Shown here: piece by piece, positions 31,765-61,167 of the stretch
Numbering within the stretch: the first letter of the stretch is position 1
How the letters are laid out: each line of letters begins with the position of its first letter
Assembly (NCBI RefSeq): GCF_024345185.1
Contig: NZ_BROB01000008.1
Location: 1 to 64,000, forward strand
DNA length: 64,000 nt
Direction of reading: 5' to 3'
From: Levilactobacillus humaensis
Lineage (GTDB): Bacteria > Bacillota > Bacilli > Lactobacillales > Lactobacillaceae
Position numbers and translations under genes: made by a program
The notes under the pieces: generated by a model
The model's database searches: none
What the model saw: the letters and a program-made list of their open reading frames with translations, nothing else
What the model was told of the DNA's origin: nothing

Positions 31765-32166
31765 TTAGTACCAGTGATGACTCTGCCAGAAACGCTTAGC
31801 CTTCGTCCAAGTGCCGTAACGACCACTGACGTAGTTGTTGGCAACACGTTCTTGGTTAGCAGGTGAGTAATCACCGTGCAGGTAAGACTTCAATAATTGG
31901 TAACGACCGTAACAACGACCATTACGAGCGGAGTAGTTGTAGCCGGATTCGCGTTTAGCGATCCAATTCTTAGCAGATCTTTGTTTTTTCGAAAGATTCT
32001 TATTGATTTCGGCGATTTTCTTTGCCTGGCTCTTGGAGACCTTGCTCGATGCCTGAGCCGTAGTCGTGGTTTCAGGCATGAGGTTGGCCGTCACATCGGT
32101 AAGAGTCCCGAAGGAGAAGCCAAATAGTAATAATAATGTTGCGATTTTAATTTTAAATTTTGACAT
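31765..32166 (-). CDS. Apf-like secreted protein with lysozyme-like C-terminal domain
   Basis: 133 residues; signal peptide to about residue 39. The C-terminal domain (about 65-133) reads AKNWIAKRESGYNYSARNG, then CYGRYQLLKSYLHGDYS, ERVANNYVSGRYGTW and a terminal FWQSHHWY, closely matching the C-terminal domain of aggregation-promoting factors of lactobacilli. RESG carries the glutamate equivalent to the catalytic Glu of transglycosylases. The protein is shorter than classical Apf and lacks a LysM domain and the Gln/Ala-rich middle. It is expected to be secreted and to act on peptidoglycan, affecting cell shape or aggregation. Confidence 0.85.
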   Translation of the reverse strand: MSKFKIKIATLLLLFGFSFGTLTDVTANLMPETTTTAQASSKVSKSQAKKIAEINKNLSKKQRSAKNWIAKRESGYNYSARNGRCYGRYQLLKSYLHGDYSPANQERVANNYVSGRYGTWTKAKRFWQSHHWY

Positions 32167-32436: not shown

Positions 32437-33264
32437 TTAGTTGAGCAACCCAAAATAAGCAATTACCAAGGTTCCAAGGGCGATTCGATACCACCCGAAG
32501 ACCTTGAAGTCATTGTTACGAATGTAGCTGAGAAGGAACTTGATGGCCAGATAGGCTACGAGAAAGGACACCACGGTTCCAGTCGTGAGCACTGCCAGTT
32601 GCATGCCAGTGAAATGGTTGCCGTGGATGAGGTACTTCAAGACTTTCAGGCTGGAGGCCCCCAGCATGGTGGGGATGGCCAGGAAAAAGGAAAATTCGGT
32701 AGCTACGTAACGTGAGGTTCCCAATAAGATGGCACCCAAGATGGTGGCACCGGAGCGTGAGGTTCCGGGGACCATGGCCAGCACTTGGCACAGACCGATC
32801 AGGACGGCCATCGTGATTGGGAGTTGGTTGAGATCAGTGTAACGGGGCCGCTTGGTTTTATTGTAGGCTTCGATCACGATAAACAGGATGCCGTAGACAA
32901 TCAGGGTGCCCGCAATGACCTGCCAGCTTGTGAGGTGCGCATCCATCCAGTCGTTTAACGGCAAGCCCACGATGATCGCTGGCAGAACGGCAATGATGAC
33001 CTTGAACCAGAGTACCCAGGTTTGGTGCCGCTCCAGATTGGATTTCCGCGGGGCCCAGGGATTGAGTTTATTGAAGTAGATTACGACCACCGCAAAGATG
33101 GCGCCCAGCTGGATAACCACCATAAACATATTGATAAAGGCCGTGGGTTCGTTGAGCTTCACGAAGGCGTCGGCTAAGTACAGGTGGCCAGTGGAACTAA
33201 TCGGTAGGAATTCCGTAATCCCTTCGATAATACCCAAGATGACCACTTTAATGATTTCTAACAC
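32437..33264 (-). CDS. uppP: Undecaprenyl-diphosphatase UppP (BacA family)
   Basis: 275 residues with a GTG start at 33264 (GAAGGACC upstream). It dephosphorylates undecaprenyl pyrophosphate to recycle the lipid carrier for cell-wall synthesis, releasing phosphate at the outer face, and gives basal bacitracin resistance. Family motifs are present: [15 protein letters not shown] (about 14-28) and [11 protein letters not shown] (about 163-173), with seven to eight membrane helices. It has a single-gene transcript with its own terminator. The promoter shows three TTTACA/TTTACC hexamers at 11-bp phasing (33324-33377), suggesting PhoP control. Confidence 0.95.
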
Positions 33265-33323: not shown

Positions 33324-33377
33324 ATCGTATCGAATTGGTGTAAAGGTGAGATTGCGGTTGTGTAAAATGTTGGTAAA
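33324..33377 (-). promoter_or_regulatory. Putative PhoP-type promoter of uppP
   Basis: On the minus strand: TTTACC (33372-33377), N5, TTTACA (33361-33366), N16, TTTACA (33339-33344), N9, TACGAT (-10, 33324-33329). The first two are 11 bp apart and the last two 22 bp, all one helical phase. Confidence 0.55.
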
Positions 33378-44090: not shown

Positions 44091-44189
44091 GGAAACAACA
44101 ACGAGATTTGTTTTTTATTTAGGCAAAATTGAAAACGAATACATAAAAGAATGACTAGGGCAGGTTTACTTCACGAGGAGGAAGCAATC

Positions 44190-46370
44190 ATGAGAACGCC
44201 AATGATGGGACAAGCCAAGGAACACTACAAGAGTTACAAGGCTGGCAAGCGCTGGGTTTACGCTAGCATTACGGTTATTGCGTTGGGCTTAGGCTTGACG
44301 GGAATCACGACAGCACAGGCGGATGTCGCACCAGCAGCCGATCCCGCAACGACTGAGGTTGCTAAGGATGACTCCAGTGAACAGCCTGAAGTTAAGGACG
44401 ACGTTAAACCAGAAGCTAATAAAAATGACGTTCAGTCAGATAAGTTAAGTGATCCTGACCAGACTCAGAAGCCTGAAGCTTCTGAGTCCGATGAACCCGC
44501 TCCCGAAAAAGATGTTCAGCAGGATAATGAACCAGGTCAAGACGTTGTTCAATCTGGAAAAAAGACTATTGTTTCTGACGTCAAGACACCAGGTGAAACG
44601 ACTCAAGATGAACAACCAGCACAAACTTTACAACAGTCACGGATGAAGAGTCGGGCAAACTTGGTTAAGGAAGCCCCATCCATTGTGGGTCAAAGCGCTG
44701 ATGAATGGATGCCAGACAAAGCGACGCAGAACTGGGTAATTTCTGCGGTTAAACAGTTTGAAGCAAATGTTAATCACAATGCTTATGCTTTTGTGACCCC
44801 TGCTAATCTCTATCAGTATGTTTCGGATGGCATTAACTTCGCCTATCTGAGTACCGATTCGGCTGGTTACGGTAAGATTCAAGATCTCACAGGACTTCAG
44901 TACTTCACCAACATGAACTCTTTTCACTGGGACAATGCCTTACCTGACAATGGCTTAATTGATATGAGCTTTGCTCCTAACTTGGTAGATTATCAGCTTG
45001 ATGGTTCAGGTAAGAGTATGAATCTCAATATGAATCTGGCAACTTTCTTAAACACGTACTTAAAACAGAATCTTAAGTTACAAGAGTTAGTGGTTAGTCA
45101 TGCCGGTCTCACTGGAACCTTGGATGGAATTGAAGCCTACCAGGAATTGACTGGGTTACACCTGATTAGCAATCAACTGACGGGGGATTTGACGCCAGCG
45201 ACAAAGCTGTCGAAGTTAACGGTTCTACGTGTCTCTGATAACCAATTGACTGGGGAATTACCCGCCCCAAGTACCTGGGCTGGATTAACTCAGCTCGATG
45301 TTCAGGATAACCAGTTGAGTGGTATTCTGCCAGACTTCAGTGGTTACAATGGAAAGTTCTGGGGAATGGAAAATCACTTTGGTAGTGGCTTAAGCTATGT
45401 GGCGGTTTATTATGAAACTGTTACTGGCAAGACCTACAAACTGACGCCAAAGGTCCAAAGTTTTGATCCTCTGACGGATGTCGTGGTCGGGATCCAAGGT
45501 TCCGATGGTAAGCTTGACCAGACTGATGCAATTGTGCCACTGCGCTTCTCTTCCGGCGCGACGGTCGTTTCTGGGGCCCCAACCGCTGGCATGAAAGGTG
45601 CTGCTGTTGATGCTTGGGCGCGGACACAGACCGATGCCTCTTCACTCTTCAAGTTCAGTGCCGATGCAGACAATCCATTAGGTTTTACCATGACAGCTGT
45701 TGGCGATGTGCCAGATGGGTCTTACACCCTCTTCCTGGAAAATGCTAACTACAACACGAGTGATAACTGTTACTTTGGTTACCTGACCTTCAACATCGTC
45801 AATGGTGAGGATCCCATCGATCCTGTCACGCCAGTTGACCCAACCCCAGGTGTGACTACCGGGACGGTTACGGTGGTTAACGTCGATGAAAATGGGAATG
45901 TTATCAGTCAACACGTTGAAACTGGGACGGTCGGGGACAGCTACACGGTCACCGCACCCGAAATAGATGGCTATCAATTGACGAGTCCAAGTTCCGTCAC
46001 TGGGACTTACACTACGGCTGGTTCAACGGTCACCTTCACTTACAGCTCATTAGCTAACGGCGGGGATGGCGCGACGATTGAAGAACCAGGTGCAAAGCCT
46101 GAAACGGGACATGGTGAGATTGTTAACGGTGGTGACGGTGATAAGGTTGTTAACACTGTTGCCAACAAGGGTGGTCAAGCTGCGAAAGCTCAGGCTGGTC
46201 ATGCCACGATGTTAGCTAGCCATGAGAACACGGCTGCTGCTCAACAGACGGCCAAGACCACTTTGCCACAAACCAATGAAGCTTCTTCTGCTAGTTGGAT
46301 TGCCGCAGGCATGGCGATCTTAGTGGCTACCTTAGGATTAGCTGGTTTCCGGAGCAAGCGTCACAATTAA
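44190..46370 (+). CDS. KxYKxGKxW/LPXTG adhesin with leucine-rich repeats and MucBP domain (paralogue 2)
   Basis: 726 residues from the ATG at 44190 (GAGGAGG upstream). Same architecture as the preceding gene: KSYKAGKRW, an acidic linker that is more diverged, EAPSIVGQSADEWMPDK, leucine-rich repeats (LTGLHLISNQLTGDL, LTVLRVSDNQLTGEL, about 310-375), MucBP (about 550-625), LPQTNE and RSKRHN. Signal peptide and MucBP regions are nearly identical at the DNA level while the head and linker have diverged, pointing to duplication followed by diversification or gene conversion at the ends. Confidence 0.92.
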   Translation: MRTPMMGQAKEHYKSYKAGKRWVYASITVIALGLGLTGITTAQADVAPAADPATTEVAKDDSSEQPEVKDDVKPEANKNDVQSDKLSDPDQTQKPEASESDEPAPEKDVQQDNEPGQDVVQSGKKTIVSDVKTPGETTQDEQPAQTLQQSRMKSRANLVKEAPSIVGQSADEWMPDKATQNWVISAVKQFEANVNHNAYAFVTPANLYQYVSDGINFAYLSTDSAGYGKIQDLTGLQYFTNMNSFHWDNALPDNGLIDMSFAPNLVDYQLDGSGKSMNLNMNLATFLNTYLKQNLKLQELVVSHAGLTGTLDGIEAYQELTGLHLISNQLTGDLTPATKLSKLTVLRVSDNQLTGELPAPSTWAGLTQLDVQDNQLSGILPDFSGYNGKFWGMENHFGSGLSYVAVYYETVTGKTYKLTPKVQSFDPLTDVVVGIQGSDGKLDQTDAIVPLRFSSGATVVSGAPTAGMKGAAVDAWARTQTDASSLFKFSADADNPLGFTMTAVGDVPDGSYTLFLENANYNTSDNCYFGYLTFNIVNGEDPIDPVTPVDPTPGVTTGTVTVVNVDENGNVISQHVETGTVGDSYTVTAPEIDGYQLTSPSSVTGTYTTAGSTVTFTYSSLANGGDGATIEEPGAKPETGHGEIVNGGDGDKVVNTVANKGGQAAKAQAGHATMLASHENTAAAQQTAKTTLPQTNEASSASWIAAGMAILVATLGLAGFRSKRHN

Positions 46371-48157: not shown

Positions 48158-48226
48158 CACAGGCTAGTCATGGCATAGATTTGCGAATCGTGTGTATCGG
48201 ATGGTAGAAAATCAGAGGCACAATGA

Positions 48227-48255
48227 TTGCCGAATAGGAAGATATGTCATACAAT
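48227..48255 (+). promoter_or_regulatory. Promoter of the RelBE module
   Basis: TTGCCG (48227-48232), 17 bp, TACAAT (48250-48255), about 10 bp before the AAGGGAGG site. Confidence 0.65.
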
Positions 48256-48281
48256 GTAATACAGCAAGGGAGGCAATACCA

Positions 48282-48515
48282 ATGGCAATGATTTCGATTC
48301 GGGTTAGCGATGCGGAAAAAGAATGGTTGACCTATATGGCCGATTTTTATGGGGTTTCTTTATCAGAATTAGTTAAAGATTATTCAATGACGGAGTTGGA
48401 AGATGAATACGACCAATTGGTAGCCAAGGTTGCCTATAAGCGGTATCAAGAAAGCGGACAGAAGAGCTTGTCAATGGATCAGATCCTGGAAGAATTTGGC
48501 GGTTCTGACCGATGA
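48282..48515 (+). CDS. relB: RelB-type antitoxin (ribbon-helix-helix)
   Basis: 77 residues from the ATG at 48282 (AAGGGAGG upstream). MAMISIRVSDAEKEWLTYMADFYGVSLSELVKDY is the ribbon-helix-helix DNA-binding part, and the acidic tail (ELEDEYDQLVAKVAYKRYQESG, then DQILEEFGG) is the toxin-binding helix. The stop overlaps the toxin start (ATGA at 48512), as in most type II pairs. It should repress its own promoter with the toxin as co-repressor. Confidence 0.88.
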   Translation: MAMISIRVSDAEKEWLTYMADFYGVSLSELVKDYSMTELEDEYDQLVAKVAYKRYQESGQKSLSMDQILEEFGGSDR

Positions 48516-48787
48516 GCTTTCATTTACGTTTCAGTCAAGGTGCCTGGAGACAGTTGAAAAAGATGGACCGGCATCAGGCCCAATTACTTGTGAATTGGTT
48601 GTATGCTAATATCGATGGACTAGCGGATCCGCGCAGTAAAGGAAAGGCGCTGTCGGCAAATTTGAGGGGACTTTGGCGATATCGAATTGGTAACTTTAGA
48701 GTGATTTGTCAAATTCAGGATGACCAGTTACTGGTTCTAGTGTTAACCGTGGGTCATCGTCGTGATATTTATTTGGATAGACTCTAG
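48512..48787 (+). CDS. relE: RelE-type mRNA interferase toxin
   Basis: 91 residues, start overlapping the antitoxin stop. FHLRFSQGAWRQLKKMDRHQAQLLVNWL, then KGKALSANLRGLWRYRIGNFRVICQIQDD and VLTVGHRRDIYL, is the RelE/ParE fold. Arg residues in GLWRYRIGNFRVI and the C-terminal HRRDIY match the catalytic layout of RelE enzymes that cut mRNA at the ribosome. The pair is intact, and a decayed copy lies 1.2 kb upstream. Confidence 0.88.
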   Translation: MSFHLRFSQGAWRQLKKMDRHQAQLLVNWLYANIDGLADPRSKGKALSANLRGLWRYRIGNFRVICQIQDDQLLVLVLTVGHRRDIYLDRL

Positions 48788-48876: not shown

Positions 48877-48933
48877 ATAAGAAAAGCCGCCACATCTTCA
48901 GTAATGAAGGTGTGGCGGCCAGGAGTGACCTAG
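48877..48933 (-). terminator. Terminator of the ABC-phosphatase operon (direct repeat 2)
   Basis: On the minus strand GCCGCCAC...GTGGCGGC with an inner helix, then TTTTC. The same 57-bp unit recurs at 48100-48157. Confidence 0.8.
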
Positions 48934-49781
48934 AAGTTGAGAATTTCTGTTTCGTAACCGTCGGGCAACAGGGAAATGACGCGGGCACCACGAGGGAGTG
49001 TCCCATAGCTGTTGTATCCGGTCGGGTTACCGTAGTTCAGGCCAATACCACGGTAGTTGGCCGTGAAGTTATTGTCGTGGTCGTGGCCGGCAAAGAGGGC
49101 CTTGACGTTTTGCGACTTCAACAAGGTGTAGAACAACCCTGAGTTGGTGACGGGTGAGCAGACGGCCTCACCTTGTTCACCGGTGAGAATGGCTTGACCA
49201 GCTTGCGTGTATTCCGGTAAGGGAATGTGCAGGAATCCGAGGTCAGTTTGCGCCTGGGTCCGGGCGTAAGGCAAGCGGGTAAACCACTCAATTTGTTCTG
49301 GTTCAATAGCCGCGTATTGTTCGTCGGCTGGCCAGTGAGAATAGTCACCGCTGTCCCAAACGTACAGAACGTGGGCGAGTTCACCATCTCGCGTTACCTC
49401 TAACGTGTAGCTTTCACGGTCGTCAACGACGGCTGCGTGGTGTTTGTCGGCAGGGTGGGCTAAGCCAGCTTCTAACTGACGTAAACCGGCTCTGTTGAGG
49501 GCACCTTCGGCATCGTGATTACCATACGTGATAGCCACTGGAACCGGGTAGCGGTTCAAGACGTCGTACAGAGCACCGAGCGTTTCCGCTGGCTTTGAGG
49601 CTTGTTTGCCCCAAAGAAGATCCCCGGTAATCATGATGAGGTCGAAGTCATTGGTTTGAAGCATCGTATCAATAGCCGTTAAGGATTTCTGACTAGCCTC
49701 GTTTAGGGGTGTGTCACTCAAATGAATATCCGTTAACTGGCAAATCTTAAAGGCCTTTTGGCCGGTAGTTTCGAGACGCAT
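48930..49781 (-). CDS. Metallophosphoesterase, last gene of an ABC-phosphatase operon
   Basis: 283 residues, AAAGGAGT upstream. The calcineurin-like signature is complete: DIH (Asp18, His20), GD (Asp54), GNHD (Asn88, His89) and GHDHD near 233. It has no signal peptide and so works in the cytoplasm, hydrolysing a phosphomonoester or phosphodiester. It is the sixth gene in line with a binding protein, two permeases, an ATPase and a PHP phosphatase, which points to breakdown of the imported compound. Confidence 0.92.
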   Translation of the reverse strand: MRLETTGQKAFKICQLTDIHLSDTPLNEASQKSLTAIDTMLQTNDFDLIMITGDLLWGKQASKPAETLGALYDVLNRYPVPVAITYGNHDAEGALNRAGLRQLEAGLAHPADKHHAAVVDDRESYTLEVTRDGELAHVLYVWDSGDYSHWPADEQYAAIEPEQIEWFTRLPYARTQAQTDLGFLHIPLPEYTQAGQAILTGEQGEAVCSPVTNSGLFYTLLKSQNVKALFAGHDHDNNFTANYRGIGLNYGNPTGYNSYGTLPRGARVISLLPDGYETEILNF

Positions 49782-49796
49782 GACGCGGACTCCTTT

Positions 49797-50669
49797 CTAG
49801 GCATCGAAGTGGTTTTCAAGATACGTGTTGTATCCTTGGTCAACGGCGGCGACACTGTGGGCGTCAGCGCCAAAGACCAACGGAATCTGGCGCTGTTGCG
49901 CGGCCTGAATCCACGGTAAGGTGGGGGTGAACTCCGTTTGAGTTGGGCGGAAGAGTCCCGCCATGTTGCAGTCTAGGAGGTCGCCACGATCGGCCACCGT
50001 ATCCAGAATGTGGGTTAAGAGTGTCCGGGTAGTGGCATCTTCCCAAGCGGTAATTGCGGGGAAGGTGTTGCGCCACTTGCGGTACAACATGATGTGGCCG
50101 TAACGCGCAGGTTTGTTGGGGGTCTCCCAATCGATGGCTGCTTGGACGCGTTCAAGGTAGGCGTTGGCAACCGTCAAAGGTGATCCATAAGCCGCCACCA
50201 CGCCGTCCTTGAAGTCGGCCGCTGTGTCGTCGATGGCTCGCAAACCCGTCTTCGTCGGCAGGAAGTGCACGGAGAGGAGGGCGTCGTCAATTTGGTCACC
50301 GTAGTGAGCCAGTTGAGCGGCAGTCCAGTCGGCGTATTCCGGGAAGAAATCAACCTCGAATCCCACGAGGATCCGGATTTGGTCACGGTACTTGTATTTG
50401 AGCCGTTCCATCTTTTCCAGATAGGCTGGTAATTCGATCAGGCCGAATGAGGCGGTGTAGACGGCGTGTCGTGACCCCGCTGGCCGGTCGTAGAAGGCCG
50501 GTGGTAGGGGAAAATGTTCCGTGATGGAGTAGGTCTTGAAACCACTCAGGATGGCCTGACGGATGAATGCCTCGACGTCCTCACCGGAACCGTGGGGGCA
50601 AAACTCCGTGTGGTTATGGCCACTCCAGGTGTGGCGGTCAATGGCACCAAGGCTCGTCTTACTCAGCAT
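49797..50669 (-). CDS. PHP-domain phosphatase (HisJ/HisK histidinol-phosphatase-like)
   Basis: 290 residues; the ATG at 50669 overlaps the ATPase stop by 11 nt, so translation is probably coupled. Metal-binding motifs HNHTEFCPHG (His18, His20) and TEHFP (Glu51-His52), EVDFFP and a C-terminal GADAHS define the PHP fold of histidinol phosphatases. No his biosynthesis genes are nearby, so the enzyme is more likely to act on the phosphate ester delivered by the linked transporter. Confidence 0.88.
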   Translation of the reverse strand: MLSKTSLGAIDRHTWSGHNHTEFCPHGSGEDVEAFIRQAILSGFKTYSITEHFPLPPAFYDRPAGSRHAVYTASFGLIELPAYLEKMERLKYKYRDQIRILVGFEVDFFPEYADWTAAQLAHYGDQIDDALLSVHFLPTKTGLRAIDDTAADFKDGVVAAYGSPLTVANAYLERVQAAIDWETPNKPARYGHIMLYRKWRNTFPAITAWEDATTRTLLTHILDTVADRGDLLDCNMAGLFRPTQTEFTPTLPWIQAAQQRQIPLVFGADAHSVAAVDQGYNTYLENHFDA

Positions 50670-51696
50670 TGGCGGGACCTACTGGATGCACGGCGGCGGG
50701 GTCAAGGTAGAGCGTGAGGGGAACGCCAATTTTCAGCGGTTCCGAGTGGTTCAATAGCTCAACCTTGAGGGGTAACTTGGCGTCACTCATGAAGTGATAT
50801 TGCACCCGGTCACCCAACATGCTGCAAGTCGTCATTTGACCGGCAATCGCCGTGGCTTCCGGCGTGGCTTCTGGCGAGAAGAGCTCCGGACGAACGACGT
50901 AGTGGGTGTCGGCAACCAGGGATTGGCCACTGGCCGTGGTCAGTCCCAATTGTTGAAGTTGCGTGCCTGTCAGAAGGTTGTGATTCCCGATGAACTGCGC
51001 CATGAAGACGTTCTCAGGTTGGGCGTAGATGGCCATTGGTGAGCCTTGTTGTTGTACCTTACCTTCATTCATGACCACAATGTCATCGGAAATTGCCATG
51101 GCTTCGCCTTGATCATGGGTGACAAAGAGCATGGTGATGCCGAGCTTTTGTTGATACTCGCGAATCTGTTCGCGCAAGCTAACTCGAATCTTGGCATCCA
51201 GGGCACTCAGTGGTTCATCAAGCAACAGGAGTTTAGGTTTGAGTACCATGGCTCGTGCAATGGCTACCCGTTGCTTTTGACCCCCAGAGAGTTGGTCTGG
51301 GTAGGCGTCCTTTTTGTTAGTCAGGCTGACCGTTTGGAGCATCGCCATGACTTCCTTGTTGATGACGTCGTTACTCTTCTTTTGAACCCGTAACCCGTAG
51401 GCCACGTTGTCAAAGATGGACATGTTGGGAAAGAGCGCGTAGGACTGGAAGACCATACCGATGTTTCGTTGGTTAGCGGAACGGCTTTGAATCTCTTCGC
51501 CGTCCAGTAAAATCTTGCCACTAACTTCGGTATTAAGTCCGGCAATTGCTCGCAAGACGGTGGTCTTCCCGCTCCCGCTAGGGCCGAGAAAGGTTGTCAG
51601 GGTGTTCCGGCGCACCTTGAAGGACATGTCCTTGATGATGTTGTTGCCGGAAAGGGTAATCCCTAAGCCTTGAATCTGTAAGAAGTCTGACTGCAT
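50659..51696 (-). CDS. ABC transporter ATP-binding protein (PotA/FbpC-like)
   Basis: 345 residues. Walker A GPSGSGKT (38-45), Q-loop QSYALFPNMSI (about 84-94), signature LSGGQ (136-140), Walker B LLLLDEP (157-162), H-loop THDQ (about 194) and a C-terminal TOBE-like domain. This is the importer class for polyamines, iron or organophosphates. Its start overlaps the permease stop by one base. Together with two permeases and a lipoprotein it makes a complete importer. Confidence 0.93.
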   Translation of the reverse strand: MQSDFLQIQGLGITLSGNNIIKDMSFKVRRNTLTTFLGPSGSGKTTVLRAIAGLNTEVSGKILLDGEEIQSRSANQRNIGMVFQSYALFPNMSIFDNVAYGLRVQKKSNDVINKEVMAMLQTVSLTNKKDAYPDQLSGGQKQRVAIARAMVLKPKLLLLDEPLSALDAKIRVSLREQIREYQQKLGITMLFVTHDQGEAMAISDDIVVMNEGKVQQQGSPMAIYAQPENVFMAQFIGNHNLLTGTQLQQLGLTTASGQSLVADTHYVVRPELFSPEATPEATAIAGQMTTCSMLGDRVQYHFMSDAKLPLKVELLNHSEPLKIGVPLTLYLDPAAVHPVGPANAE

Positions 51697-52511
51697 TATT
51701 TCTTTGCGCCCTCCTTGGTGGATTTGTGTGGTGCCGAGTAGTGTTGCATGATGAGAATCAAGATCAGCGAGATGAACGCGAGGAAGATGAAGTAGATGGT
51801 CGTCAGCACGCTGCTGGCCTGACCGTTACTACGCATCAATCGGTACATGTAGATCTTGAGGGTCTCGAAGTTTCCCCCTAAAAGGAGGTTCGTCAGGACG
51901 TATTCCCCAAAGGCACTGGTGAAGGTCAGGAGCATGGCGACCAGGACACCGGCACGAATGTTGGGGATGATCACCTTAACGAAGGCCTTGAAGGGCGAGT
52001 CGCCTAAAACTAATGCTTGTTCGAACATGGCCCGGAAGTCGCGACCGATGAACGCGTTGTCTAGCGCTTGGTAGGTGAGAGGGAGACTTAGCAACGAGAT
52101 GGCCAGCACTAAGATGATAATCTTAGGAATTGGCAATTCTGCGTATAACTGAATCAGACCTGTCACCAGGATGATCCCAGGAATCGTGAAGGGAAGTACC
52201 GTGATGAAACGCAGGTGCGACTTCACTTGGGGATTGTAGACGTTGGCGTAGAACACAACAGGTAGGAAGCAAGCCATGGCAATCAACGTAGTCAGCAAGC
52301 CGAGACTAAATGACCGTAAGAGAACCGCCATGAATTCGGGACTAGCCACTAATTCGCTATACCATTTCAGGGTCAGGCCGTTAGGCAAAATGGTCTTCAC
52401 CCAAGAAGTTGAGAATGAGTAAATCATAGTGACAACGATGGGCGTTGCCAGGTAGATAAAGAGAAAGGTAATGATACCGCGAGCAACGCGGGTGCTAGCT
52501 TTTGGACTCAT
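51696..52511 (-). CDS. ABC transporter permease (second membrane subunit)
   Basis: 271 residues, six predicted helices, start overlapping the previous stop codon (52511). The EAA-like loop QALVLGDSPFKAFVKVIIPNIRAG (about 165-190) contacts the ATPase. The similarity is to PotC/ThiP/FbpB-type permeases. Confidence 0.9.
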   Translation of the reverse strand: MSPKASTRVARGIITFLFIYLATPIVVTMIYSFSTSWVKTILPNGLTLKWYSELVASPEFMAVLLRSFSLGLLTTLIAMACFLPVVFYANVYNPQVKSHLRFITVLPFTIPGIILVTGLIQLYAELPIPKIIILVLAISLLSLPLTYQALDNAFIGRDFRAMFEQALVLGDSPFKAFVKVIIPNIRAGVLVAMLLTFTSAFGEYVLTNLLLGGNFETLKIYMYRLMRSNGQASSVLTTIYFIFLAFISLILILIMQHYSAPHKSTKEGAKK

Positions 52512-53335
52512 TAGGCTTTCACCTCCCGTTTACTACGCGTGACCCGGTTACCCAGCCAAACAATGGCTGTCATAAAGAGGGCAAACAGGGTGGCGAAGGT
52601 ACAGGCCAGTGGGACGTTTGCGGTTAATCCGCCATCAATCAGGGTTCCAATCAGGGTTGGAATGGTTACCAAACTGTTTCCCGTCAAGGCAAAGGTCGTT
52701 TCGTAGGTCCCCATAGCATTGGCGAAGAGTAAGGTAAAGACTTCGACGATGTTGGGTAACACGACCGGAAAGATGACTTTCTTAAAGAAAAACATGGGTT
52801 TTGCCCCGAGGACGGAAGAAATTTCCTTCCATTCCGGATTCAATTCCTCGAAGACTGGGAAAAGAAACATGATACCCAGTGGGACTTCGAAGAAGGTGTA
52901 GGCCAGGGTAGTCCCGCTCAGAGAATAAATCTCAAACGTGCGGGGCAGGTGCAGGGCCGTCATCAGGGCCTGCCAGATACCAGCATTTCCGAATAAGATG
53001 ATTAACGAGAAAGCCAGGGGAACCCCAGCGAAGCTAGAGGACATATTGAACAGAGAGATCAGGATATTCTTGGTCTTGGGAGCCAGACGAGTTAAGGCCC
53101 AGGCGCCAATAATCGCGATGATTAATGAGATAACCGAGGCTACCAGTGAAATTGCCAAACTGTTGCGAATGGCTTCGGTGTAATAGCGCGTCGAGACGAC
53201 TTGATGATAATTTTCAAGACTGAAGCTACCATCCGCCGATTGGAAACTCGCGATAATCATAACCGTAATTGGCAACAAGAGGACTAAGACGACTAGCAAG
53301 CCAAGTGGAAAAAATACTTTCAGTCGCGTTTTCAT
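52511..53335 (-). CDS. ABC transporter permease (first membrane subunit)
   Basis: 274 residues, six predicted helices. The cytoplasmic EAA loop is ISSVLGAKPMFFFKKVIFPVVLPNI (about 175-200). The gene starts 5 nt after the binding-protein stop, so the operon is tightly packed. Confidence 0.9.
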   Translation of the reverse strand: MKTRLKVFFPLGLLVVLVLLLPITVMIIASFQSADGSFSLENYHQVVSTRYYTEAIRNSLAISLVASVISLIIAIIGAWALTRLAPKTKNILISLFNMSSSFAGVPLAFSLIILFGNAGIWQALMTALHLPRTFEIYSLSGTTLAYTFFEVPLGIMFLFPVFEELNPEWKEISSVLGAKPMFFFKKVIFPVVLPNIVEVFTLLFANAMGTYETTFALTGNSLVTIPTLIGTLIDGGLTANVPLACTFATLFALFMTAIVWLGNRVTRSKREVKA

Positions 53336-53340
53336 GGCTG

Positions 53341-54423
53341 TTACTTAGCTCCAAGAACTTCATTTTGCCATTGTTGGCCTAACTTAACGGTTGCCTTGTT
53401 CCAAACATCATTGCTCTTCACGTGGAAGACCTTCTTGTAGTCACTTTGTGGCAATAACTTCTTCTTCACATCTGCTGGTAACTTCACACTGCTACGGATT
53501 GGACGAGCATAACCCTTTGCCAGGTTGATTTGACCTTGGTCGGAAAGGATGAAGTCACGAGCCAATTTGGCAGCATTTGGATGAGCGGCGTTCTTGTTGA
53601 TGAGTTCGGCGTAACCACTAGTTACCGTCCCATCAGTTGGAACCGTCACCTTGAAACGCTTGGCGTCAACTTGGTGAGCATAGTTGAGGGCGTTGAAGTC
53701 CCACATAATTGAAACTTGAATTTCACCCTTTTGCAGGTTTTGAACGGATGGGTCAACCGTAGAAATCCGTTTTTGCTTTTGTAATTTAGCAAAGTACTTC
53801 AAACCGGGTTCCAGGTTGTCTTCACTTCCGCCGTTAACGTAGGCAGCGTTCAGAACCGCGTATTGTGGTTGAGCCGCAATGGCAACGTCACCCAGGGAAA
53901 TCTTGTAGTTACCCTTTGCCAAGTCAGCCCAAGACTTAGGAGCGTCAGCGGCTTTAACGTTCTTGGTGTCGGTGATGAAGACCATAGAACCAGAGTAACC
54001 AGCAGAGTAGTAACCCTTCTTATCCTTAGCCCAGCTAGGAATTTCGTTCCAGTACTTGGTCTTGTAAGAAGTCAGCAGGTTCTGTTGAACGGCGGTTGGG
54101 GCAACGTTCAGACCAACGTCACCGATGTCAGGAGCGTCGGCGCCTTTGGCTGTCTTGAACTTTTGGAGTTCTTGGGCACTAGACATGTCTGTATCCGTAT
54201 GTGAGATGCCATACTTGGACTTAATGTCTTGCCAGCTACCAATCCAGTTGGCCCAGGTGTCAGGCATCCCCACGGAAGCAACCTTGCCTTCCTTCTTGGC
54301 TTGCTTTTCGATGGTCTTCCAGTCGTCGGAAGTTCCTTCCGCCTTCTTAGTTGAACATCCTGCTAAAGTTGAAACCATCGTGAGGGCCGCAGCCGCAATC
54401 ACCAAATTACGTTTGTTAAACAT
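53341..54423 (-). CDS. ABC transporter substrate-binding lipoprotein
   Basis: 360 residues from the ATG at 54423; a TTG one codon earlier is possible. Lipoprotein signal with LAGC (Cys23). The fold is that of the Fe3+/thiamine/phosphonate binding-protein cluster (type II): PDTWANWIGSWQDIKSKYG near 55-75, SYKTKYWNEIPSWAKDKKGYYSAGYSGSM (about 118-145), PKSWADLAKG (about 165) and LSDQGQ (about 293), the last two typical of this group. The related AfuA protein binds sugar phosphates, and linkage to two phosphatases supports an organophosphate ligand, but this is inferred. Confidence 0.88.
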   Translation of the reverse strand: MFNKRNLVIAAAALTMVSTLAGCSTKKAEGTSDDWKTIEKQAKKEGKVASVGMPDTWANWIGSWQDIKSKYGISHTDTDMSSAQELQKFKTAKGADAPDIGDVGLNVAPTAVQQNLLTSYKTKYWNEIPSWAKDKKGYYSAGYSGSMVFITDTKNVKAADAPKSWADLAKGNYKISLGDVAIAAQPQYAVLNAAYVNGGSEDNLEPGLKYFAKLQKQKRISTVDPSVQNLQKGEIQVSIMWDFNALNYAHQVDAKRFKVTVPTDGTVTSGYAELINKNAAHPNAAKLARDFILSDQGQINLAKGYARPIRSSVKLPADVKKKLLPQSDYKKVFHVKSNDVWNKATVKLGQQWQNEVLGAK

Positions 54424-54459
54424 CAAATCAACACTCCTTCTGTTTTAGTTACGAGGTGT

Positions 54460-54513
54460 ATATTAGCCGACTCATGTAAATCGCTCGCAAAAAAGGTATA
54501 TAGATCGTGTAAA
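54460..54513 (-). promoter_or_regulatory. Putative PhoP-type promoter of the ABC-phosphatase operon
   Basis: On the minus strand: TTTACA (54508-54513), N5, TATATA, N5, TTTGCG, N5, TTTACA (54475-54480), N9, TAATAT (-10, 54460-54465). The four hexamers are in exact 11-bp register, and a further TTTACA at 54533-54538 is off register. The layout matches the PhoP-box promoters known in Bacillus. Confidence 0.55.
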
Positions 54514-58746: not shown

Positions 58747-61167
58747 TTACCACCGACGTCGGAATCCGAGAACACTCGTGATTGATAGGAGGAGTGCCCC
58801 CAGTGCTGCCCACCAGGTTGACTGTTCGTTGGTTTGCGGAAGAGTATTTGTAGATTTGGTCGTTGTCGAAGTCTGTGTTGACGATGACGTCTTCACATAA
58901 CCAGACGCCAAATGGCGCGGCGCTTTAGCCCGAGTTGCCGCACGATAATGTGGCTTTTGACTCACTATACCTGGTCTTTGACCAGTTGTCGGTTTGGTGA
59001 CCGGTCGTGGTGTTTTGCCAGGTTGGGGATCGGTTGGAACGGTCGGTGGTGTCGTGGGATCTGTCGGATCAGTCCCAGGATTAGGCTCGGTTGGATTTGT
59101 CGTTCCAGTCCCATTACCAGGCGTTGTGGTCCCGGACCCATCCCCGGGGTCAGTCGTTGCTGGGGCAGAAACGGTTACAGGAACTGTTGCGGTTACCGTA
59201 TTTCCAAGATCATCGGTATACGTATAGGTGACGGTGTAGGTTCCCGCTTTGGCGGAATCGATCGCGGTTACGGTTTGCCCACCGGCATCCTGAATCGTTT
59301 CAGTTAGCGCCTGACTGCTGAGGGCGTCGGCAACTGAAACGGGTTGTCCATCACTACCGGTTAAGCCAGTGATACCCGTTCCTGTCGTCCAGGAGGACCC
59401 GGAAGGTAAGGTTACGGGGGATGTGTCCGTTTGAATCGCTAGTGGACTGGTAGTCACGTTAATGGTGGCTGGCGCACTAGTCGTTGTGTTTCCTTGAGCA
59501 TCGAGATAGCTGAAGGTGACCGTATATTTTCCAGTTTGTGTGGTGTCGACTTTACCATTAACGGTGAGGTCACTGATCTGCAGGGGCGTGCCATCGGGAC
59601 CGATCGCACTTTCCAAGTTCGTGCTGGAATCCCACTTGGCCTTGGGCCCCGCGACCAAAGTGCTGTCTTTCGGCGCTAGGGCCGTTTGAATGCGGGTGAC
59701 ATAGACCGTATAGGCCTGACCACCAGTTGCGTTTAGCGTGGCACCGGCAGCCGGGGCTTTGTATTCAATCTGCGAGGCCGTTCGCGTGATAGTGCCAACG
59801 GGCGTGCCGTCCGCTAATTTAAGGGATGGTTCCCAGTAGTCGGTAGTGCTCAGACCAAGATCGGCAAGGGTGACCTTATAGGAAGTTCCCGAGTTTCCAG
59901 TTACTGAAACTGGTGTTGAAGTGAGCAGTTGATTTCCGTTGGATGCGTCATAAACGGTGTAGGTGTCGGTGACGTTGGACTCAACGTAGTTCACGACCCG
60001 TTTCATACTGGTTCCACCAGAAGTTAAGGCGATGCCTTCGATATTGGCATCGGGTGCGCCAATGTTGTCTCCCAGTGAAGAAACAGGAATAGACACATAA
60101 CCACCGGATAGCGACTTGGTTAAATCACCGATACCGGCAAAAAGGACCCCCGTTTCCGACACTTCGGCGAGATTTCCGGCATTAGCGGAGACACTCGTAT
60201 AGGAACGGTCTGTGGTTGTCTTAATAGGCAAGATCATCTTAGTCTGGTCCTTGTACTTTGCTGCTGGGTCCACATAGGTGACTTTGGCGCCATCATTGGG
60301 CCGGAAGTAGAAGGCCTGTCGTCCGTCTGTTGTGTTCCCCAATTGGAAGACATCGAGTGATTGGATGTCAGCGTATTTTTGAATTGCCGTGGCATATTCT
60401 GAGGCGCCCTTTTTAAAATCATCAAGCGTGGCGGAAGTACCTGCAGGCATCACAACGTAAAAGCCATAGAGGGGATCATTGACGGCCAATCCATTTGATC
60501 CACCGAAAAAGTAGGGCATCAGTAAGATTGGCGCATAGGCGCCATAAGTTGTCACCATACCGTTCGTAATATCAACATAGAAGTTAGAGACTTTGGGCAC
60601 CGTGGTCAGGGGTACTGCGGTTGGTGCGGTTACCGCAACTTCACGTGCTTGACGCGGCGCTGTCACCGATAAGGCACTTATCTTATCGGTGTCGATTTTT
60701 GAGCCATTTGAAACAGACGTCTCGTCACTCTCAGAGGTAGTCTCTACCGGGTCGTCTGGCTGATCATCCTCATCGTCGTCTTTCAACAAGTTGTTTGAAT
60801 TAATATCTTCAGTTGGGTCGCTTGCCGGCTGGTCTTGAGAAGACGAGTCTTCGTCAGTATTAGATTGCGTGTCATCACCAGTCGCTTCATCTGGTGGGGT
60901 CGACTCAGAGTTAGTATCGGTTTTTGAGAAATCGGTATCGGTTATGTCAGTTGTGACGGGTTGATCGGATTGCGATTTATCCGCTGTTTCTGTGGTCTGT
61001 GGCGTTGTGTCATCACTCGTAGTTGTTGCGGCTTGTGCGGTGACGATGGCGCCACCCGTAATGGCAACGGTGGTGATGGCGGCCGTCAGCCAGAGCTTGC
61101 CAGCCTTGTAAAGCTTGTAGTGTGTTTTAGGGGTGGTTTGGTGAAGCTGGTTTCCATGTCTAAACAT
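58747..61167 (-). CDS. KxYKxGKxW-signal, LPXTG-anchored adhesin with Ig-like repeats
   Basis: 806 residues; CAGGAGC upstream. Signal KLYKAGKLW (18-26), cleavage near VTAQA. An acidic Asp/Ser/Glu/Thr-rich region (about 48-155) precedes a globular head (about 180-520) with GRQAFYFRPNDGAKVTY, matching the head of the protein at 35576-38248. Two Ig-like modules (about 525-670) follow, then a Pro/Thr/Asp linker (TNPTEPNPGTDPTDPTTPP), LPQTNE, a hydrophobic segment and FRRRW. It is a distant paralogue of the 890-residue adhesin 21 kb away. Confidence 0.9.
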   Translation of the reverse strand: MFRHGNQLHQTTPKTHYKLYKAGKLWLTAAITTVAITGGAIVTAQAATTTSDDTTPQTTETADKSQSDQPVTTDITDTDFSKTDTNSESTPPDEATGDDTQSNTDEDSSSQDQPASDPTEDINSNNLLKDDDEDDQPDDPVETTSESDETSVSNGSKIDTDKISALSVTAPRQAREVAVTAPTAVPLTTVPKVSNFYVDITNGMVTTYGAYAPILLMPYFFGGSNGLAVNDPLYGFYVVMPAGTSATLDDFKKGASEYATAIQKYADIQSLDVFQLGNTTDGRQAFYFRPNDGAKVTYVDPAAKYKDQTKMILPIKTTTDRSYTSVSANAGNLAEVSETGVLFAGIGDLTKSLSGGYVSIPVSSLGDNIGAPDANIEGIALTSGGTSMKRVVNYVESNVTDTYTVYDASNGNQLLTSTPVSVTGNSGTSYKVTLADLGLSTTDYWEPSLKLADGTPVGTITRTASQIEYKAPAAGATLNATGGQAYTVYVTRIQTALAPKDSTLVAGPKAKWDSSTNLESAIGPDGTPLQISDLTVNGKVDTTQTGKYTVTFSYLDAQGNTTTSAPATINVTTSPLAIQTDTSPVTLPSGSSWTTGTGITGLTGSDGQPVSVADALSSQALTETIQDAGGQTVTAIDSAKAGTYTVTYTYTDDLGNTVTATVPVTVSAPATTDPGDGSGTTTPGNGTGTTNPTEPNPGTDPTDPTTPPTVPTDPQPGKTPRPVTKPTTGQRPGIVSQKPHYRAATRAKAPRHLASGYVKTSSSTQTSTTTKSTNTLPQTNEQSTWWAALGALLLSITSVLGFRRRW

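Follow-up and report, generated by a model that had tools for sequence, protein, structure and literature searches.

The subject of this study is a six-gene operon at 48930-54423 on the minus strand of a 64,000-nucleotide stretch of Levilactobacillus humaensis (contig NZ_BROB01000008.1, positions 1 to 64,000; the whole stretch is hereafter called the window). We propose, with moderate confidence, that this operon encodes a phosphate-starvation importer of a small organophosphate, controlled by PhoP and combined with two cytoplasmic hydrolases, and that the likeliest substrate is a phosphodiester or an aminoalkyl phosphate. In the proposed mechanism, a lipoprotein would capture the organophosphate ligand and a permease/ATPase complex would bring it into the cell. 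There, a metallophosphoesterase (in other organisms a PF01663 enzyme) would split the diester into a phosphomonoester and an alcohol, and a HisJ-like PHP enzyme (elsewhere a HAD or another PHP enzyme) would take the phosphate off the monoester. That a phosphate ester is imported and then hydrolysed inside the cell was already suggested in the original prediction, which was made from the letters of the window, and this is the reading best supported at the level of sequence by swappable phosphohydrolase sets, a pst-like promoter and relatives that passages of two papers describe as phosphate-regulated (PMC1892558, PMC5082522).

The features of the operon, from 5' to 3' on the minus strand, are:

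54460..54513, minus strand: putative promoter of the Pho-box type, TTTACA-N27-TTTACA-N9-TAATAT; a TTTGCG stands 11 bp ahead of the second TTTACA
53341..54423 (alternative TTG start at 54426), minus strand: substrate-binding lipoprotein (SBP), Pfam match to SBP_bac_6 (PF13343), closely related to 5t1p of Campylobacter jejuni
52511..53335, minus strand: ATP-binding cassette (ABC) permease 1 (P1); the NCBIfam permease models shown score under their cut-offs
51696..52511, minus strand: ABC permease 2 (P2), BPD_transp_1; top NCBIfam model PhnV, 62.5 bits with a cut-off of 358.7
50659..51696, minus strand: ABC ATPase, ABC_tran and TOBE_2; top NCBIfam model PhnT2, 344 bits with a cut-off of 458
49797..50669, minus strand: PHP-family phosphatase (PHP), HisJ-like (NCBIfam HisJ PRK08123), proposed phosphomonoesterase
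48930..49781, minus strand: calcineurin-like metallophosphoesterase (MPE), Pfam match to Metallophos, proposed phosphodiesterase
48885..48920, minus strand: terminator hairpin 3' of MPE, with a T-rich tail after it (fold -30.5 kcal/mol, z -6.5)

All six genes predicted to run without gaps or with overlaps were present and tightly packed, with gaps of 5 bp (SBP/P1) and 15 bp (PHP/MPE) and overlaps of 1, 1 and 11 bp. The operon is a bounded unit, with a conserved promoter motif on its 5' side and the terminator hairpin on its 3' side. This hairpin was found by folding and is absent from the list of a separate promoter/terminator scan. P1 had no Pfam match above cut-off (BPD_transp_1, 17.7 bits vs a cut-off of 26.4).

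The SBP was found in 21 of 301 Lactobacillaceae genomes (the window's own included), which belong to 6 of 40 genera. Among the named relatives listed, those closest to the SBP were from Levilactobacillus paucivorans, L. lindianensis, L. huananensis and L. brevis. A search of gene neighbourhoods, which the original prediction had proposed, recovered the complete six-gene order in 18 of the 20 other carriers; hence, the order is not due to chance. The same prediction regarded absence of the two enzymes from related strains as evidence against their coupling to the importer. Among the 20 carriers, both were missing only in Apilactobacillus apinorum (L038), where a transposase pair follows the ATPase (IS3-like, a label from reading its sequence), and MPE was missing in one genome (L024) whose contig stops after PHP. 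In Companilactobacillus halodurans, the place of PHP between the ATPase and MPE is taken up by a pair of shorter frames, of 154 and 138 residues, which may be a decaying gene.

In total, at least 577 SBP relatives were confirmed in named genomes, and the best 80 loci were read for enzyme genes by tblastn (E <= 1e-10 over half the query). A match counted wherever it lay in the locus and on whichever strand. The two enzymes are exchanged at both slots. The first slot held a PF01663-type phosphodiesterase in 57 loci and an MPE in 19, and never both, such that a first-slot hydrolase was present in 76 of the 80. The second slot held a PHP (four subtypes) in 41 loci and a HAD phosphatase (two subtypes) in 26, again never both. 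One enzyme of each slot was detected in 66 loci.

Outside the lactobacilli, there is usually a gene of about 270 residues that comes next after the SBP or last in the operon. Two representatives were scanned, and both matched the type I phosphodiesterase/nucleotide pyrophosphatase family PF01663 (68-76 bits), a family with no match in the window genome. The second slot is filled alternatively by HAD-IB, HAD-IA or one of several PHP phosphatases; the top model for the HAD-IB enzyme was histidinol phosphatase (191 and 206 bits, cut-off 280). In Sporolactobacillus putidus, a PF01663 enzyme occurs together with a PHP of the lactobacillar type (41% identity). The SBPs of Pseudomonas relatives are 52-54% identical to the window SBP, and their loci have a GntR regulator together with a PF01663 enzyme and a HAD phosphatase where the window has PHP and MPE. 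The order in these loci is PhnR-like GntR, SBP, PF01663 enzyme, P1, P2 and ATPase, whereas the lactobacillar operon has neither the GntR gene nor the inserted gene. Furthermore, 287 plasmid records matched the SBP, of which 179 were from Enterococcus, and in one annotated E. faecium plasmid the SBP gene is surrounded by a PHP gene, in divergent orientation, and a gene of the alkaline phosphatase family. The 21 neighbour clusters outside the operon, of which the first residues were read by eye, looked unrelated.

The catalytic residues of both window enzymes are intact. PHP residues H18, H20, E105, H135, H192, D269 and H271 did not vary over 12 rows, one of which was the 3dcp fragment (42% identity to PHP), and MPE residues D18, H20, D54, N88, H89, H185, H233 and H235 were invariant in 17 rows. 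From family knowledge, we take these positions to be metal ligands. Since neither protein begins with a signal-like stretch (judged by eye), both enzymes are probably cytoplasmic. For MPE, no solved chain was matched by sequence at E 0.001, and its model had general calcineurin-like neighbours only (Mre11/SbcD, purple acid phosphatase, 5'-nucleotidase; best TM about 0.5-0.6, root-mean-square deviation mostly 5-9 A), so that the structure settles neither a diester nor a monoester as substrate. The 'two phosphatases' of the original prediction look more like one diesterase and one monoesterase.

PHP resembles histidinol phosphatase, as had been predicted, with 247 bits vs a HisJ cut-off of 133, and it is the only HisJ-family match in the genome. 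One could therefore regard it as the histidinol phosphatase of histidine synthesis that ended up in the operon by happenstance, all the more so as hisD is present in 8 of the 20 other carriers. Against this, the predicted absence of his genes near the operon holds genome-wide for the two that were tested: neither hisD nor IGPD/hisB was found in the 99% complete window genome (each search was positive in 13 of 14 control genomes, with B. subtilis giving none), and hisD is absent from 12 of the 20 carriers. A role in histidine synthesis is scarcely credible on these results.

The structural model of the SBP was confident (pLDDT 90.8). Its nearest solved structure was 5t1p of C. jejuni (52% identity, Z 42.9). 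The next neighbours all fell within about one Z unit: Salmonella STM0429 (4r6y; Z 29.9), labelled as a putative 2-aminoethylphosphonate (2AEP)-binding protein, MctA (29.6), AfuA (29.0) and VcA0625 (28.7). The ligand residues of the hexose-phosphate binder AfuA are given in a passage of PMC4546632 as S37, T150, H205, D206 and E229. In a profile alignment counted by hand, these correspond to S82, Q185, W241, D242 and S269 of the window SBP. The five positions are highly conserved among 38 aligned SBPs from Bacillota and Pseudomonadota (S82, W241 and D242 in 38/38, S269 in 37/38, Q185 in 36/38), and all five residues are kept in 5t1p. W57, W60, D55, D77, D79, Y143, Y271 and R307 were also invariant. 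A site that is nearly invariant despite differing neighbouring enzymes fits a single ligand with exchangeable enzymes.

The importer shares with AfuABC the SBP fold and the serine S37, which is the invariant S82. It differs in that AfuA H205 and E229 are replaced by W241 and S269. The site therefore appears to retain the phosphate-binding serine while two of the three sugar contacts are gone. Because just one of the three sugar-coordinating residues is kept, a sugar phosphate is a less likely ligand. The original prediction expected release of phosphate and an alcohol or sugar; the release of phosphate fits, and the sugar has lost ground.

These results also bear on an importer of phosphomonoesters (a sugar phosphate, glycerol 3-phosphate or phosphoethanolamine) with phosphomonoesterases in both slots. 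The glucose-6-phosphate binders AfuA and VcA0625 are close structural neighbours, calcineurin-like enzymes often cut monoesters, and the MPE model decides neither for nor against such an activity. We nevertheless consider this explanation unlikely, in view of the replaced sugar contacts and because a second monoesterase would be superfluous, whereas 66 of the 80 loci have both slots occupied.

SBP_bac_6 also includes iron binders, ferric-binding proteins share the fold, the iron-binding 1y4t of C. jejuni ranked third by sequence profile, and the ATPase scored high against PotA and ferric models. Accordingly, an importer of iron or polyamines, with phosphatases adjacent by chance, had to be considered. 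However, the NTYY motif of 1y4t aligned to WDF plus a gap, and WDF was present in 38/38 SBPs, such that the tyrosine pair that serves as iron ligand in FbpA-type proteins was not found at this gapped part of the alignment. The first-slot hydrolase in 76 of the 80 loci and the pst-type promoter argue against it as well, and we regard an iron or polyamine ligand as very improbable.

The promoter of the operon has a layout that is shared with a pst operon. Upstream of the SBP lie two TTTACA repeats at a distance of 33 bp from each other, and a promoter scan of this strand listed no canonical sigma-70 site 5' of the SBP. Across the 8 Levilactobacillus loci compared, the pattern was kept at 15/15 positions in 7 and at 14/15 in 1; in loci outside Levilactobacillus the repeats appear to be spaced differently. 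The genome contains two pst operons (L129, L130). Within 30 kb around them, TT[TCA]ACA pairs at 11, 22 or 33 bp were found solely 5' of the pstS that lies beside a phoPR-like pair (pst2), and the layout common to the operon and pst2 is TTTACA-N27-TTTACA-N9-TAnnnT. The top score of the phoPR-like kinase was PnpS (376 of 400 bits), and the top scores of the regulator were YycF, MtrA, RpaB and PhoB, those shown all being under cut-off.

A genome-wide search for the pattern, in which at most one mismatch was permitted and the reversed pattern served as a control, gave four matches: the operon, pst2, a second metallophosphoesterase gene (exact) and uppP (one mismatch). The second metallophosphoesterase (L133, 1624-2523, plus strand) is SpdA/CpdA-like under cut-off and has the exact pattern at 1501-1554, about 70 bp upstream. 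The undecaprenyl-diphosphatase gene uppP/BacA lies in the window (32437-33264, minus strand) and has the pattern at 33324-33377. Using a phased-repeat score that was picked after the sequence had been seen, we ranked 79 upstream regions by four repeats. The top place went to pst2 and the next to the operon, ahead of a small ORF at 31765-32166 (third) and uppP (fourth); pst1 was in sixth place. In Markov simulations of the operon's own upstream region, a 15/15 match occurred in 0 of 5000 sequences and a 14/15 match once. In B. subtilis, PHO boxes have a placement defined relative to the -10 element. PMC4415409 describes PHO boxes as 11-bp direct repeats. The motif upstream of the SBP, with 11-bp phased TTTACA-type repeats before a -10 element, agrees with a Pho-regulon motif. 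Judged by this motif, PhoP may bind the promoter, and the operon is probably under PhoP control in response to phosphate starvation.

Relatives of the importer have been linked to phosphate elsewhere. The C. jejuni system that contains 5t1p, which we take to be Cj0727, resembles that of the window in its SBP and in its retained site, and its neighbours are reported as phosphate-regulated. According to passages of the papers concerned, the phosphate regulation of Cj0728-Cj0734 was shown, with Wosten 2006 given as the source (PMC1892558), Cj0727-Cj0755 are listed as comprising phosphate-regulated genes, iron uptake and others (PMC2292242), cj0727-cj0732 form an operon without a currently assigned function (PMC7176700), and Cj0732 and PhoX were both raised in one condition (PMC11202532). 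Cj0728 is labelled a putative periplasmic protein (PMC9612045). In P. putida, the GntR regulator PPUBIRD1_3890 and the ATPase PPUBIRD1_3895 were raised in phosphate (Pi) depletion and undetected in a phoBR mutant, as stated in part of PMC5082522.

Several observations weigh against the proposed phosphate-starvation importer of an organophosphate. After 5t1p, the nearest relatives of the SBP by sequence profile were the sulfate-binding 1sbp and then the iron-binding 1y4t, followed by VcA0625 and AfuA, with STM0429 two rows lower. The 80 loci are not phylogenetically independent: L038 is the same contig as L061, and many loci are from Vibrio, Pseudomonas and Levilactobacillus. A diesterase was undetected in 4 of them (L044, L061, L100 and L119; L044 and L119 stop at contig ends and L061 has the transposase pair), and a monoesterase in 13. 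Families PF01663 and PF00149 also hold phosphomonoesterases, such that the case for a diester as substrate hinges on there being a further enzyme dedicated to monoesters. The pst operon that is not adjacent to the phoPR-like pair lacks the promoter pattern. Moreover, because the pattern was built from the operon and pst2, only two of the genome-wide matches are independent, and the reversed control gave one match. When fewer repeats were scored, the operon fell to about fourth (three repeats) or fifth (two repeats) among the 79 regions. Finally, the P. putida SBP PPUBIRD1_3891 (PhnD3) increased both in the wild type and in the mutant, i.e. independently of PhoBR, and was reduced yet detected in the exoproteome of the phoBR mutant (passages of PMC5082522). 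It is described as AepS, part of a constitutive auxiliary 2AEP transporter and hence a phosphonate carrier (in part of PMC8316502).

We infer that Pseudomonas AepSTU is the same system as the window importer from gene order and spacing, because the spacing GntR-SBP-x-x-x-ATPase (3890, 3891, 3895) equals that of the Pseudomonas loci; AepS is likewise a SBP_bac_6 (pfam13343) binder. The difference is that AepSTU was described for 2AEP uptake. The window operon could accordingly encode a 2AEP importer with adjoining enzymes that are incidental. Apart from the matching gene order, this would agree with the loss of growth on 2AEP as phosphorus source in a triple transporter mutant of P. putida (passages of PMC8316502), with the PhnR-like regulator of a Vibrio locus (252 bits, cut-off 297), with the label of 4r6y, the second-nearest structure, and with a phosphonatase over cut-off in one of the 20 carrier genomes (346 bits). 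Yet the single aepSTU deletion had no growth effect according to the same passages, and phosphonate breakdown, as judged by PhnJ and phosphonatase, was not detected in the window genome: PhnJ gave no match (the E. coli control was positive), and the best phosphonatase score was 38 of 220 bits. In 19 of the 20 carriers phosphonatase was likewise not found over cut-off; no control genome exceeded this cut-off, and the carrier with 346 bits shows that the search can find one. PhnW, PhnX and PhnJ did not appear among the 21 neighbour clusters or among ten proteins scanned, although no search was aimed at them. The equivalogs of PhnSTUV, the 2AEP importer of Salmonella, scored under their cut-offs (PhnS 42.4/395, PhnT 266/499, PhnV 62.5/359 bits). 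A dedicated 2AEP importer seems distinctly unlikely. The main text of PMC8316502 makes no use of the term 'alkaline phosphatase', so we take the enzyme linkage to be undescribed there.

The proposed organophosphate importer may work by the same logic as UgpBAECQ, a Pho-controlled ABC importer of glycerophosphodiesters with the cytoplasmic diesterase UgpQ, in which Pho-controlled import is followed by internal cleavage of the diester. It would, however, have been assembled from other protein families than UgpB and UgpQ, and a monoesterase is added in the window operon. A more specific version, which is tentative and on balance doubtful, is that the importer family carries an ethanolamine-type phosphodiester, e.g. 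glycerophosphoethanolamine (or phosphoethanolamine), and works with diesterase and monoesterase modules that can be swapped. On this view, AepSTU would take up 2AEP as a look-alike, in a side activity, and an amino-alcohol phosphate would be the common substrate of the unrelated HAD-IB and PHP enzymes. This version was drawn from four hints, each of which is weak if taken alone: 2AEP uptake by AepSTU, the PhnR-like Vibrio regulator, the 2AEP label of a structural neighbour, and the likeness of both HAD-IB and PHP to histidinol phosphatase.

We found no account in the literature that joins an ABC transporter, a histidinol phosphatase and a metallophosphoesterase in Lactobacillus, none that joins an ABC transporter, the alkaline phosphatase superfamily, 2AEP and a solute-binding protein, and none that combines three of 2AEP, phosphoethanolamine, glycerophosphoethanolamine and a solute-binding protein. 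If the organophosphate importer is real, it would give a function to a transporter family of lactobacilli, enterococcal plasmids, bacilli, vibrios, pseudomonads and Campylobacter, relatives of which are now labelled as iron or phosphonate uptake systems. A lactic acid bacterium would gain a plausible Pho promoter signature and a route for scavenging organophosphates. Moreover, beside one conserved site, unrelated diesterases replace each other and so do unrelated monoesterases, which points to one ligand that is amenable to a direct test.

Just 3' of the operon, and convergent with it, lie genes for a RelB antitoxin and a RelE/ParE-type toxin (48192-48787, plus strand). On either side of the region, a large surface protein with an LPQTN sorting signal is encoded, at 44151-46370 on the plus strand and at 58747-61167 on the minus strand.

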